The position numbers and the translations under genes were made by a program. From positions 1,613,092 to 1,677,091 of the forward strand of contig NZ_AP019781.1 in assembly GCF_019669965.1 (NCBI RefSeq): a stretch of 64,000 nucleotides of DNA, given 5' to 3'. Under the pieces are notes generated by a model, which was not told the origin of the DNA, did not search any database, and saw only the letters and a list, made by a program, of their open reading frames with translations. This DNA comes from Methanoculleus chikugoensis (GTDB taxonomy: Archaea; Halobacteriota; Methanomicrobia; Methanomicrobiales; Methanoculleaceae). Shown piece by piece: positions 9,379 to 56,950 of the stretch (position 1 is its first letter; every line of letters starts with the position of its first letter).

Positions 9379-9680
9379 TCAGAACGCCGGTTTCGTGAAG
9401 TACCGGAGCGCCTCAGGCCGGTGCCGCTTGAGTTCCACAAAGAAGTACTGTGCGAGCTCTGGGTCGGAGTCGTCGATCGCCTGCTTGCAGGGTGCGCAGC
9501 AGCCACCCCGGGATATCCTCGCCCGCATCAAGCGTATTCATCACGACAACGATTGCCTCGTCTACATCCTGTCCATCATTCCAGCGATAGGGCACCCGGC
9601 ACCATCTCCGGAGAGGAGATATCCGTCTCGCACATAAAGCGTCTCCGGGGCGTCCCGGTTCCGCAGGAACACGAGGTTTA
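9379..9680 (-). pseudogene. Frameshifted remnant of a small gene
   Basis: On the minus strand three reading frames join into one protein-like sequence. Frame one gives NLVFLRNRDAPETLYVRDGY and ends in a stop; the second continues with YRWNDGQDVDEAIVVVMNTL; the third gives CCAPCKQAIDDSDPELAQYF and ends FTKPAF-stop at 9379. Third codon positions are G/C-rich in each piece, as in real genes here. Two frame changes are needed, so this is a decayed gene or a region with sequence errors. Family unknown. It occupies the 433-base gap before the next gene; 9282-9378 shows nothing else. Confidence 0.4.
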
Positions 9681-9714
9681 AGTGACCCACAGGACAACAG
9701 GAGGTGCGGATGAG

Positions 9715-10137
9715 GTGTCCATGATGTTCCGTACGACAATCAGGGTAGATACGCACGGGGAAGGAGAGATCGTCGACCTCACGCCCCGGGTGGCGCAGGC
9801 GGTCGCCGAGAGCGGTGTTCGGGAAGGCCTCGCGAACGTCTTCGTCGCGGGCTCGACCGCCGCCGTCACCACCATTGAGTACGAGCCGGGCGTGCTCACC
9901 GATCTCTCCCGGGCGCTCGCGGTCATCGCCCCGGCCGATATCCCCTACGCCCACGATGCGGCATGGGGCGACGGCAACGGCCGCTCGCACGTCAGGGCGG
10001 CGATCGTCGGCCCGTCGCTCTCCATCCCGGTGATCGGCGGTGCGCTCGCGTGCGGCACCTGGCAGCAGATCGTCCTCCTGGAACTCGACGTGCGATCGAG
10101 ACGCGAGCGGACGGTCTACGTCACCGTCACAGGCTGA
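9715..10137 (+). CDS. YjbQ/UPF0047 family (secondary thiamine-phosphate synthase type) protein
   Basis: A 140-residue soluble protein of the YjbQ fold: EIVDLTPRV near the N terminus, a core GLANVFVAGSTAAVTTIEYE, and the C-terminal signature GSLSIPVIGGAL-like segment ending in GTWQQIVLLELD. Members show weak thiamine-phosphate synthase activity, though the physiological role is unsettled. The GTG at 9715 is chosen because GGAGGTG lies 8 bases upstream; the ATG at 9721 is the alternative. Confidence 0.88.
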   Translation: MSMMFRTTIRVDTHGEGEIVDLTPRVAQAVAESGVREGLANVFVAGSTAAVTTIEYEPGVLTDLSRALAVIAPADIPYAHDAAWGDGNGRSHVRAAIVGPSLSIPVIGGALACGTWQQIVLLELDVRSRRERTVYVTVTG

Positions 10138-16776: not shown

Positions 16777-17074
16777 TATCGCCATTGGGGGAGGGGCTGA
16801 CGGGGAGGGGGGCATGCCCCCCTCCCCTGTCTCTGCCCTGTATGCCGATATCTGTAACCCCACTCGAAGACCTTCGGTTTTCTCAAACTCCCAGCGTTGT
16901 CCGTCGCCCTTCCTGGGCAGTCGGACTCCCCCTATATGGGCGCTCGCAAGCCTCTCCTCAAAACCCCCCACCCCCGCGCTTCGCGCTCCTCATTCGCACC
17001 TGACGGTGCTCAAACTCCGCTCCTGATGGAACGTCGTTCCGCCCCCCCAAGGGGGCGGGCAGTGCGTGGCGATA
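16777..17074. repeat. Dispersed G/C-rich element, copy B
   Basis: Left end TATCGCCATTGGGGGAGGGG, right end a G/C-rich palindrome then TGGCGATA. A large hairpin arises from GGGGAGGGGGGCATG and its complement CCCCCCTCCCC (16801-16826). Inside are GCACC-tgac-GGTGC (16996-17009) and AAGACC-type stems. The left flank shares ACGGATTT with copy A. No gene is credible. Confidence 0.6.
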
Positions 17075-17440
17075 TGTGACTGGCCAAAGGGCAGGAGCAG
17101 GAGAAGACCGAAGGTCTTAGACCGGCGATTGGCCAAAGGACAAGAACACGAACACCGAAGAACAACGTTCCTTCGGAATGCGATGGGCCGAAGGGCCGGA
17201 GCATGAGCATCGAAGGTGTGCAGTCCCCTCGAAATCCGTGCACGGGCTTTACGACATAGTGAAGAAGAATCACCATAAGGCGAATCACCCGTACGACAGA
17301 GTTCAAGAAGACATCAGGCTTCCAAATGCGAGCATAAGTGGCATACGAGAAGACCAAAGGTCTTCGAGCCGCGATGGCAGTGGCCGTAAGCACCATCGGA
17401 CTTCGAGCAACAGCAGATCGGAGGTTGCCAGAGGTGCAAC
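17075..17440 (+). repeat. Hairpin-linker modules beside copy B
   Basis: Runs of linker and hairpin: GGAGCAGGAG, AAGACC-gaa-GGTCTT (17104-17118), GGCGATTG, then near 17179-17220 GCGATG, GGCC-gaag-GGCC, GGAGCATGAG and a degraded GCATC-gaa-GGTGT. A weaker AAGACC-aaa-GGTCTT with GCGATG recurs at about 17350-17380. Order and linkers match the copies at 18815, 37913 and 56764. Confidence 0.55.
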
Positions 17441-18653: not shown

Positions 18654-18814
18654 CCCTTAAATTCCCGGGCAACCGGCCAAAACCTTTATTTTCTACATTT
18701 CCAGAACAGGAATTATTAAATATTAAAATGCACTAGATAGACCTAGAGAGATTTGGATCCACACAAGACACTTCCCCCCTTGACGTCGTCTTTTCGTGTA
18801 TCCTCTTCTCTCTA

Positions 18815-18908
18815 AATGCGACGGCCCGTAGGGCCGGAGCTCGAGAAAACGCGAAGCGTTTTCGAGTTGCGATGGTCCGAAGGACCGGAGCAGAAGCGCC
18901 ACAGGTGC
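18815..18908 (+). repeat. Hairpin-linker module, copy D
   Basis: The clearest copy: GCGAC, then GGCCC-gta-GGGCC (18823-18835), GGAGCTCGAG, AAAACGC-gaa-GCGTTTT (18846-18862), CGAGTTGCGATG, GGTCC-gaa-GGACC (18874-18886), GGAGCAGAA, and GCGCC-aca-GGTGC (18896-18908). Each stem is perfect or has one mismatch, and the stems differ from those in other copies. Confidence 0.65.
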
Positions 18909-19006
18909 AAAACCGCATTTCTTCAGGGCTCGCTCTCCACCGGGAGGCAGGTCTCCGCGACCCATCACCGCGTTCTGCCGGTCAAACCGCCATCATCCCG
19001 CCGGCG

Positions 19007-36424: not shown

Positions 36425-36799
36425 CGGGATCCCTGCCGGGATCTGTCGTGGACAATCTCCGCGGCCCATGTAGGGAGCGATCGAAGGAACCCAAGGGTTC
36501 GTAAAAAGCCCGGCACAGCACTCTGTTGAAATGCATCACGCAACCCCCGGAGAACGCTGAGTTACCAATAGAGGGCAATAATGTTGCCTCACGCGAAGCC
36601 GCGAAGGACGACTTTCCGCAGGGAAAGGAGTTAGAACATCGTCAGGTGCGAAGAACGCGAAGGGAGGTCGATAATTTGACCCTCGGGGTGCTTCCTCAGA
36701 ACTTTAGCGAAGCACTGCGTCTCGCGGCGAGCGCCGCCCCCCGTTCCGCACATTTTTCCCGCGCCGGAGCCAACGCATCCTCCGGGAAGTGACGGAAGA
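36425..36799. other. Gene-free stretch with a decayed hairpin module (copy G)
   Basis: No credible gene in about 375 bases. At 36621-36660 the sequence GGAAAGGAGTTAGAACATC, then AGGTGCGAAG, is a degraded match to the linker-hairpin unit of copy E (41886-41920). Confidence 0.4.
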
Positions 36800-37474: not shown

Positions 37475-37685
37475 AGAGACCGGCAGTCATTAGATCGTCT
37501 CGCCGGTACCGTTGGTTCCGGACCGGACATGGGGAGCTGTATCTTGCCATAGAAGAGCGGAACTACCGGTTCTGCTGAAACCGCGTTCCATCTTCATCCT
37601 TTCCTGATGAGGTTAACGCTGGGCCCGGCTGTCCCTAGGATCAACCTTTTTTCCTCGAACATCCCCATGCAGTGGACCGTGGGAG

Positions 37686-37912
37686 AATCGCCATTGGGGG
37701 TGGGGCTGACGGGGAGTGCGAGCGGAGCGAGCTTGAGCACCGATAGGTGCGAAGGGGGCACGCCCCCTCCCCTGTCTCCACCATACAGGGATCAGCCTAC
37801 AACCCCACCCCGCCCGGCCTTCGGCCTCCTCATTCGCACCTAACGGTGCTCGAACTCCTGCCGTTCCGGCAGTCGTTCCCCGCCCCGAGGGGCGGGGGCA
37901 GTCATGGCGATA
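37686..37912. repeat. Dispersed G/C-rich element, copy C
   Basis: Left end AATCGCCATTGGGGGTGGGG, right end CAGTCATGGCGATA. It holds GCACC-gata-GGTGC (37737-37750), GCACC-taac-GGTGC (37836-37849) and TGCCG-ttc-CGGCA (37859-37871). The left flank (37662-37685) matches the right flank of copy A in reverse complement. Confidence 0.6.
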
Positions 37913-38010
37913 GGCGATGCCCCCTACGGGACATCGCTGGAGAAGATCGAAGGTCTTGGACTTGCGATGGACGGAACGTCCGGAGCACGAGCACCGCTAG
38001 GTGCGCAGCC
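37913..38010 (+). repeat. Hairpin-linker module beside copy C
   Basis: GGAG, AAGATC-gaa-GGTCTT (37943-37957), TTGCGATG, GGACG-gaa-CGTCC (37969-37981), GGAGCACGA, GCACC-gcta-GGTGC (37991-38004). Same order as copies D and F with different stems. Confidence 0.6.
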
Positions 38011-38120
38011 CAGTGGAAAGCCGTGCTCCTGAGCACCCCTGATTGCGGCCATCTGGAGCAAACAGGGGGTTTCAACAAGGCCGAACTAACTTTCTTCAAC
38101 GATTGGACGTGAATAATAGA

Positions 38121-41849: not shown

Positions 41850-41925
41850 GAGGGAAAGCGAACGTGAGCACCGCAAGGTGCGGGGAAAGGAGTTCGAGCA
41901 CCGCCGGGTGCGAAGGAGCGTTACT
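41850..41925 (+). repeat. Hairpin-linker module, copy E
   Basis: Two tandem units: GTGAGCACC-gcaa-GGTGC (stem at 41868-41881) and GGAGTTCGAGCACC-gccg-GGTGC (41898-41911), with GGAAAGGAGTTCGAG linker between. Confidence 0.5.
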
Positions 41926-55907: not shown

Positions 55908-56763
55908 CCGAACCGTAACCAACCTCAGGATCAGCCTCACCCAGCGGTGCAACCTGCGGTGCATCTACTGCCACGCCGAGGGCGAGGTGAACCCGGAGGA
56001 GCAGATGAGTGCCGAGGATATCGCCGAGCTGATGCAGGTGGGCGTGCAGTTCGGGATCAGGAGCATCAAGTTCACCGGCGGGGAGCCGCTGCTCCGCCGC
56101 GACCTCGTCGATATCATCCGCTCGGTGCCGCCGGGAGTGGAGTCGTCCCTGACGACGAACGGAACGCTGCTTGCGGCGAAGGCCGCGGAGCTCAAAGAGG
56201 CCGGGCTTGCGCGGGTGAACGTCAGCCTCGACACCCTCCGCCCCGAGCGCTACCGGCAGATCACGGGCAAAGACTGCCTCGCGGACGTTCTTGAGGGGAT
56301 CGACGCGGCGATCGAGGTCGGGCTGACTCCGGTCAAGCTCAACATGGTGCTCCTCGACGGCATCAACGAGGACGAACTGGACGACTTCATGGCGTTCGTC
56401 CGGAGCAAGCGCGACGTCATCCTCCAGGTCATCGAGCTGATGGAGTTCAACGAATGCAAGTTCCACGGAGACGTGGATGGCGTCGAGCAGGACCTGAACG
56501 AGCGGGCGAAACGGGTCGTCACCCGCCGGATGCACCACCGCAAGAAGTACTGCCTCGACGGCGCCGAGGTCGAGGTGGTGCGCCCGCTCCACAACACGGA
56601 GTTCTGCGCATTCTGCAACCGCCTGCGCGTGACCTCAGACGGGAAACTCAAGCCCTGCCTTCTCCGGAGCGACAACCTGATCGATATCCGGGGCAAGCAC
56701 GGCAAGGAACTCGAAGATGCCTTCCGCGAAGCCGTCGGCAGGCGAAAGCCGTTCTTTACGTAA
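55885..56763 (+). CDS. moaA: GTP 3',8-cyclase (molybdopterin biosynthesis)
   Basis: A 292-residue radical SAM enzyme making the pterin precursor of molybdopterin. N-terminal cluster cysteines C22, C26 and C29 (CNLRCIYC), C-terminal cluster C241, C244 and C258. The start at 55885 follows AAAGGA and lies within the end of rlmE, so the two are translationally coupled. The terminal Gly-Gly of bacterial MoaA is absent, as in many archaea. Confidence 0.94.
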   Translation: MVLKDPYNRTVTNLRISLTQRCNLRCIYCHAEGEVNPEEQMSAEDIAELMQVGVQFGIRSIKFTGGEPLLRRDLVDIIRSVPPGVESSLTTNGTLLAAKAAELKEAGLARVNVSLDTLRPERYRQITGKDCLADVLEGIDAAIEVGLTPVKLNMVLLDGINEDELDDFMAFVRSKRDVILQVIELMEFNECKFHGDVDGVEQDLNERAKRVVTRRMHHRKKYCLDGAEVEVVRPLHNTEFCAFCNRLRVTSDGKLKPCLLRSDNLIDIRGKHGKELEDAFREAVGRRKPFFT

Positions 56764-56950
56764 GCGATGTTCGGCCGCGATCGCGGCCGAACGGAGCTTG
56801 AGAAAATTGCGCAGCAATTTTCGATGCGCGACTGGCCGAAGGGCAGGAGCGTGAGCACCGGAGGTGCGAAGGCGATGTTCGGTCTTTTCGAACTCCGGCC
56901 CTGTGACCCGTCATTACTCGAAGACCTTCGGCCATCTCACACTCCGATTC
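56764..56950 (+). repeat. Hairpin-linker module, copy F
   Basis: Directly after moaA: GCGATG, a perfect 24-base palindrome at 56769-56792 (GTTCGGCCGCGA and its complement), GGAGCTTGAG, AAAATTGC-gca-GCAATTTT (56803-56821), a GCGACTGG linker with a short GC stem, GGAGCGTGAG, and GCACC-gga-GGTGC (56855-56867), then GCGATG again and further decayed units. Confidence 0.65.

Follow-up and report, generated by a model that had tools for sequence, protein, structure and literature searches.

REP, BIME and REPIN elements are regarded as miniature mobile DNA of a non-autonomous kind that acts through single-stranded DNA hairpins (PMC3733652; PMC3116915; PMC6006769). The main text of one of these works (PMC3733652) names no Methano- genera, and archaea appear in its reference list only. 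As for the hairpins themselves, DNA mini-hairpins in which G-C pairs carry a GNA or GNNA loop are reported to be extraordinarily stable (PMC4686876), and template switching is known to produce inverted loops and compensatory changes of several bases at once (PMC8794818). The sole repeat entry found in the genome paper of M. marisnigri JR1 concerns CRISPR repeats, with a count of 0, and we found no paper in the open-access literature on the Methanoculleus repeats described here, of which an earlier description elsewhere is possible.

The window analysed here, a stretch of 64,000 nt from Methanoculleus chikugoensis (positions 1613092–1677091 of the genome; coordinates of covariance model matches count from the genome start), was originally predicted to contain at least seven intergenic sites that share two linkers with short hairpins between them. 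All seven sites listed do hold these motifs, and a repeat search of the window redone without this framing recovered the same module (repeat families D1/D2, D3 and D19). The family consists of cassettes of 45–48 nt (period of 45–49 nt) with two small hairpins each, whose sense strand reads (T)GCGA-stem-loop-stem′-GAGC-nn-GA-stem-loop-stem′-CGA. Hairpin 1 (slot 1) combines an outer helix of ~3 bp, a tandem G-A/G-A step and a covarying stem of 5–7 bp whose loop is GNA or GNNA. Hairpin 2 (slot 2) has the same kinds of loop, with GA/GA on its flanks. The GCGA and GAGC flanks are invariant in 24 diverse modules (alignment A1), with variants ACGA and GAGT elsewhere, and the module edges, TGCGA...GCGA, resemble direct repeats. 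The covariance-model search proposed at the outset was run with a model (R1) built from these 24 modules; against the whole 2.62-Mb genome (one contig) it returned ~150 copies among the matches listed (best E 3e-14). The copies are one modular family, as first described. The slot-2 pattern GCACC-GNNA-GGTGC occurs in about a hundred copies genome-wide, whereas the control, the same pattern reversed, occurs four times on each strand. The absence of a named family also stands, for Rfam 15 at the gathering threshold retrieved one tRNA only across the window and no match for the modules; MIR1858 and CRISPR-DR56 were discarded as below threshold and chance-like. Our preferred reading, with a probability of roughly 60%, is that the modules are Methanoculleus-specific, REP-like non-autonomous DNA elements, in which the 45–48-nt two-hairpin cassette would act as single-stranded DNA.

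As had been predicted, it is pairing and not sequence that is conserved. Slot-1 arms picked by linker position alone, in modules chosen by slot 2 alone, give 235 paired cells out of 282, where shuffled partners give 142 ± 7 (none of 2000 shuffles was that high), and the 24 modules are 94.4% paired, against 66% after shuffling and 23–53% in slid controls, with a covariation score of 0.739 versus 0.242 (0/500 shuffles). Two of the initial statements had to be abandoned, namely that all stems are perfectly paired, because a single imperfect pair occurs in 60 of the 111 distinct slot-1 hairpins sampled more widely, and that the linkers stay fixed, because they pair as an outer helix and covary (TGC..GCA versus AAC..GTT). 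Outward from the inner stem of slot 1, both sides have a conserved G-A, and beyond this step come a C-G pair and then covarying bases (TG with CA or CT, AA with TT); the second position of this outer helix pairs in 106 of 149 cases and the third in 77 of 149, levels not reached in any of 5000 shuffles, hence the composite hairpin 1 described above.

The element at 18.8 kb was examined together with its orthologous sites, located in the genus by the flanking gene region. It is a multi-hairpin insertion of about 93 nt, TGCGAC...GGTGC (at about 18817–18909, + strand), between CTCTCTAAA and (AAA)CCGCATTTC; these bounds replace those given at first (18815–18908). The site is filled in the window, G005, G030, G011 and others, and empty in G010, G012 and G016, where CTCTCTAAA runs directly into CCGCATT, and in G007, where AAA is joined to CTGCATTT. 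On the + strand, the insertion holds a slot-1 hairpin (18818–18840; GC-GA-CGGCCC-GTA-GGGCCG-GA-GC), which covaries in paralogues and orthologues, a slot-2 hairpin compared with its orthologues (18843–18865; GA-GAAAACGC-GAA-GCGTTTTC-GA), a third hairpin of slot-1 type (18869–18891; GCGA-TGGTCC-GAA-GGACCG-GAGC) and a fourth of slot-2 type whose left arm is decayed (18896–18908; GCGCC-ACA-GGTGC). The full module pattern, GCGA-stem-GNA-stem′-GAGC-nn-GA-stem-loop-stem′-GA, is found on the + strand at 18818–18865 as well as at 37964–38005 and 56828–56871.

Across nine orthologues, the 18.8-kb element is 97.9% paired, with a covariation of 0.240 versus 0.110 after shuffling (0/500). Slot 1 reads CGGCCC-GTA-GGGCCG in the window, CGGGCC-GCA-GGGCCG in G005, CGGTCC-GAA-GGACCG in G030, CGGCCG-GAA-CGGCCG in G028 and CTGCCG-GAA-CGGCAG in G026; the last two are sisters, with a flank divergence of about 1.7%, and stems are replaced between sister species at only 2–4% flank divergence. 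Slot 2 shows a compensated change from AAAACGC/GCGTTTT to AAAACAC/GTGTTTT (AAAACAC-GAA-GTGTTTT in G005, G030 and G033) and is inverted in G003, where the loop is TTC, while orthologues carry GGTTCC-GCA-GGAACC at the position of the third hairpin. An extra complete two-hairpin module lies within the slot-1 arm of G033 and G003, and the other filled species examined are without it. Matched stem changes among copies may be in part wholesale hairpin replacement, and not base-by-base compensation. Directly 5′ of this insertion there is a strongly conserved intergenic stretch, CTAGAGAGATTTGGATCC...GTGTATCC..CTCTCTA (18731–18816, + strand), also present at module-free sites in the genus; its consensus folds into a single long hairpin of 24 pairs, of which one has changed on both sides, without a match in Rfam, and it constitutes a candidate unannotated small RNA.

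Loop sequences and mismatches both distinguish the two strands. Of 88 distinct slot-1 triloops, 59 are GNA, with any of the four bases in the middle, and 4 are the inverted TNC; the closing pair of the 59 is C-G or G-C in 55 (C-G 39, G-C 16). Slot-2 tetraloops are mainly GTCA, GTTA and GCTA, but also GCCA, GCAA and others, that is, GNNA and not the GNRA of RNA, and the modules conform to the rule for stable DNA mini-hairpins, by which a loop of GNA or GNNA is carried by two or more G-C pairs. Single mismatches are G.T in 35 cases and A.C in 11, and in the outer helix the counts are 19 and 3, with a non-significant excess of G.T (14:7) at inner stem positions alone; since module copies share descent, these tests are not fully independent and the p-values are indicative only. 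Both asymmetries indicate that one particular strand folds and carries the structural constraint. The cruciform, one of the two structures originally envisaged, does not fit in its symmetric form with either asymmetry. Both argue also against purely neutral arm-copying, in which template switching would make, perfect, invert and duplicate hairpins, gene conversion would spread them and mutation would keep the pairing. Template switching is known for such compensatory changes and loop inversions (PMC8794818), and the inverted hairpin of G003 and the whole-hairpin replacements in orthologues agree with this explanation; however, it predicts that GNA equals TNC and G.T equals A.C and, alone, leaves unexplained why a unit of fixed length, 46 nt, recurs with its GA/GA steps conserved at more than 100 places. 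We consider it quite improbable.

The same asymmetries do not alone rule out RNA. If the arrays were transcribed and the hairpins selected as structured non-coding RNA, perhaps as protein-binding sRNAs, then the strong covariation, the one-strand constraint with more G.T than A.C and the tandem G-A steps, which are common in RNA too, would all be expected. Folding energies from ViennaRNA fail to separate the two molecules, a comparison that is uninformative because the DNA and RNA parameter sets have no GNA triloop term, and the carrier at 37.5–38.1 kb beats shuffles in folding as RNA (z −4.85), though as DNA too (z −4.18). Such an RNA is nonetheless unlikely in our view, considering the GNA/GNNA loops with free middle bases, the lack of orientation bias versus neighbouring genes and of any Rfam match, the presence or absence of whole units, the rapid turnover of stems among close species and the rarity or absence of modules in several congeners.

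The original prediction missed the mobility of the units, which are mobile or duplicating cassettes as judged by whole-unit presence and absence, arrays and empty sites. At orthologous as well as paralogous sites, modules are either there in full or missing altogether, and they are also nested one in another. One setting is a carrier of ~515 bp (37568–38082, no strand assigned) with terminal inverted repeats GGTTCTGCTGAAA and TTTCAACAAGGCC, flanked by GAACTACC and GAACTAAC, a 7/8 duplication. It is present in L130 and L132, with its right part in L129, and is missing from M. sediminis (L131) and two others, L133 and L149 (empty sites in three species). Within it there is a short inserted module of 38 nt, AGTGCGAGCGGAGCGAGCTTGAGCACC-GATA-GGTGCGA (37715–37752, + strand), which L130 lacks (GACGGGG joined to AGGGGGCACG), and an inserted two-hairpin module of 46 nt, AACGACTGCCG-GAA-CGGCAGGAGTTCGAGCACC-GTTA-GGTGCGAAT (37832–37877, − strand), which is precisely missing from the orthologues in L129 and L130 and present in L132. 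They are followed by a degenerate module, GCGATGCCCCCTACGGGACATCGCTGGAGAAGATC-GAA-GGTCTTGGACTT (37913–37963, + strand), whose hairpin is exchanged for another in L130, and by the two-hairpin module GCGATGGACG-GAA-CGTCCGGAGCACGAGCACC-GCTA-GGTGCG (37964–38005, + strand), which belongs to alignment A1 and is matched by R1 in its own genome. None of the pairs found by searching with the pattern of the terminal repeats could be shown to enclose a transposase, and the one pair read, of 2.4 kb, holds a LeuA-like gene. The same ~500-bp carrier occupies the same site in L136 (Methanoculleus sp. UBA208) and L138, around 9400–9850, with a duplication of CAAATTTC in L136; one of the two bears extra modules and the other does not.

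Systematic comparison of carriers revealed many more precise differences of 45–48 nt, confined to a small number of sockets that recur, mostly beside G-runs, and one socket can hold different modules with different stems. The cassette insertions are clean, with no consistent target duplication, and the presence/absence patterns could be due in part to precise deletion or gene conversion between carriers. Modules also follow one another head to tail every 46 nt, close neighbours (<60 nt) being on the same strand in 26 of 26 cases, and the longest array has 14 copies in G019 (region 5850–6550 of L209; G019:C1:1429832–1430480). This array mixes two unit types, and most of its slot-1 hairpins have one mismatch. 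A second type of carrier has inverted repeats CTCACGCGAAGnnGCGAAGCCGCGAAG ... CTTCGCGGCTTCGCG with GCGAAG recurring every 8–9 nt and modules inside, and occurs at many loci (e.g., L044 4180–4290, L049 3750–3830 and L081); GCGAAG is the core of the d(GCGAAGC) mini-hairpin.

Further modules are scattered along the window. On the − strand are AACGACTGTCC-GAA-GGACAGGAGTTTGAGCACC-GAA-GGTGCGAATT (909–955; R1 match 1613997–1614043), which is missing from the paralogous carrier in L061, and AACGACGTTCC-ATCA-GGAGCGGAGTTTGAGCACC-GTCA-GGTGCGAAT (16990–17036; R1 match G000:1630080–1630128), of a kind gained or lost among paralogues. The + strand contains an array of module relics, GCGAT..GGAGC..AAGACC-GAA-GGTCTT..GCGATGGGCC-GAA-GGGCCGGAGC (17064–17225; families D1/D2), and an array at 56763–56873 that starts with a large GTTCGGCCGCGATCGCGGCCGAAC hairpin, continues with AAAATTGC-GCA-GCAATTTT and ends with the module GCGACTGGCC-GAA-GGGCAGGAGCGTGAGCACC-GGA-GGTGCGA (R1 match 1669919–1669965). 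Partial modules on this strand are two slot-2 hairpins at 41850–41925 (GCACC-GCAA-GGTGC and GCACC-GCCG-GGTGC), a site with the second hairpin type only and not among the R1 matches listed, and two copies new to the original prediction: a slot-2 hairpin, GAGAAGACC-AAA-GGTCTTCGAG, followed by GCGATGG (17347–17375; family D19), and a slot-2 half module, GGAGTTAGAACATC-GTCA-GGTGCGAAG (36618–36653; family D3).

Methanoculleus genomes, some of the relatives being draft assemblies, mostly contain from dozens to more than 100 module copies, and some contain 0–22; one sister genus has 67 copies, and no copy occurs in 24 genomes from the order's other families. Among 149 genomes of the class that were scanned, those outside Methanoculleus and the sister genus yielded only 1–2 weak matches in five genomes. 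Four genomes from other families of the same order (G082, G106, G116 and G130) show one or two weak matches each (E about 1e-5 to 1e-4), which are possible distant relatives of the cassette. The intergenic location initially described was confirmed, with none of 70 clusters inside a predicted gene in 61 stretches (620 kb) chosen around matches, with genes called by a simple codon model. In this sample, 33 of 69 clusters lie in convergent gaps, versus 35 of 188 for the other gaps (p 6e-6), an enrichment that could be taken to indicate host regulatory parts, such as terminators, mRNA stabilisers or nucleoid/gyrase sites like the classical roles of REP and BIME. We find this very improbable: avoidance of promoters fits the enrichment equally well, there is no T-run after the hairpins in the sequences read, the sites are polymorphic and genus-limited, and there is no bias relative to tandem genes (37 in the same orientation, 28 in the opposite). 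Replication strands are also used equally (71:71), without a clear pattern in 200-kb bins.

REP-type Y1 transposases (PF01797) and reverse transcriptases (RVT_1) were searched for in 23 genomes of the genus, including the present one, which has neither. Y1 transposases appear in five of the 23, four of them low-copy for modules; nearly all module-rich genomes tested are devoid of both enzymes, the exceptions being G009, with Y1, and G011, with one reverse transcriptase. We accordingly rejected an origin from RAYT or IS200 elements, given the absence of PF01797 here and its occurrence mostly in module-poor genomes, and retro-copying, given that RVT_1 is absent here and found once in module-rich G011; an autonomous partner beside the modules was also rejected, their neighbours having no repeated gene family. 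G020, of the same genus, has 19 matches to Y1 transposase, many fragmentary, and no module matches.

We infer mobility by a dedicated pathway, as well as the single-stranded stage and the copying machinery. Under the preferred reading as REP-like elements, the cassette would be exposed as a single strand in the lagging strand or in a transposition intermediate, and its very stable GNA/GNNA mini-hairpins would be what is copied or recognised. Copying in this genome would use neither a REP-type Y1 transposase nor a reverse transcriptase, and would proceed through template switching during replication, which probably contributes, and ectopic conversion among copies, or through a putative recombinase. 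The joint changes of the arms would have two causes, selection for the fold and the swapping of whole hairpins or renewed copying of one arm from its partner, and the wholesale replacement of stems would be due to the proposed ectopic exchange among copies. A more specific version, which we offer tentatively as a doubtful possibility, is a previously undescribed mobile system of Methanoculleus in which a protein-free, 46-nt two-hairpin single-stranded DNA cassette is copied into G-rich junctions by a putative archaeal enzyme that recognises the GNA loop and the G-A step by their shape and not by sequence, so that stems would be free to diversify.

The modules offer a natural case in which the shape of a DNA hairpin, under the GNA/GNNA rule derived from synthetic oligonucleotides, is kept while its sequence turns over between sister species; they would carry REP-like biology into methanogenic archaea without the known transposase, and their empty and filled orthologous sites are ready for dating the gain of cassettes. 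They also caution against taking strong covariation as proof that an RNA is functional.

Among known systems, the tandem arrangement with a period of ~46 nt resembles CRISPR arrays, but the variable parts of the modules are self-complementary stems and not freely varying spacers. Integron attC sites and the ends of IS200-IS605 elements are folded single strands recognised by structure, with variable stem sequence. The modules may resemble them in this respect, but without cassette genes or a demonstrated matching enzyme. The likeness to MITEs is confined to the carrier at 37568–38082, with its terminal inverted repeats and duplications of ~8 bp (7/8–8/8 in the window element and L136); the cassettes have no terminal inverted repeats or consistent target duplication, and exist also outside such carriers (e.g., at 18.8 kb and in GCGAAG-repeat carriers). 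CGTC-tagged REPs (PMC3733652) are likewise palindromic repeats without a dedicated transposase, but the modules lack CGTC at the stem end and have stems of 5–7 bp and loops of 3–4 nt, versus 8–9 bp and 4–5 nt. With the GTAG REPs, BIMEs and REPINs mobilised by RAYTs (PMC3733652; PMC3116915; PMC6006769) they share being short, palindromic, intergenic, clustered, genus-limited and present in more than 100 copies. Conversely, the modules bear GCGA and GAGC flanks in place of a GTAG/GTGG end tag, a RAYT/Y1 transposase is missing from this genome and from most of those rich in modules, they run head to tail without a predominance of inverted HH/TT dimers, and each is a two-hairpin 46-nt unit with GNA/GNNA loops and stems covarying over 43 distinct sequences. 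Because of these differences in tag, transposase and dimer geometry, we do not class the modules as REP, but as elements that work like them.
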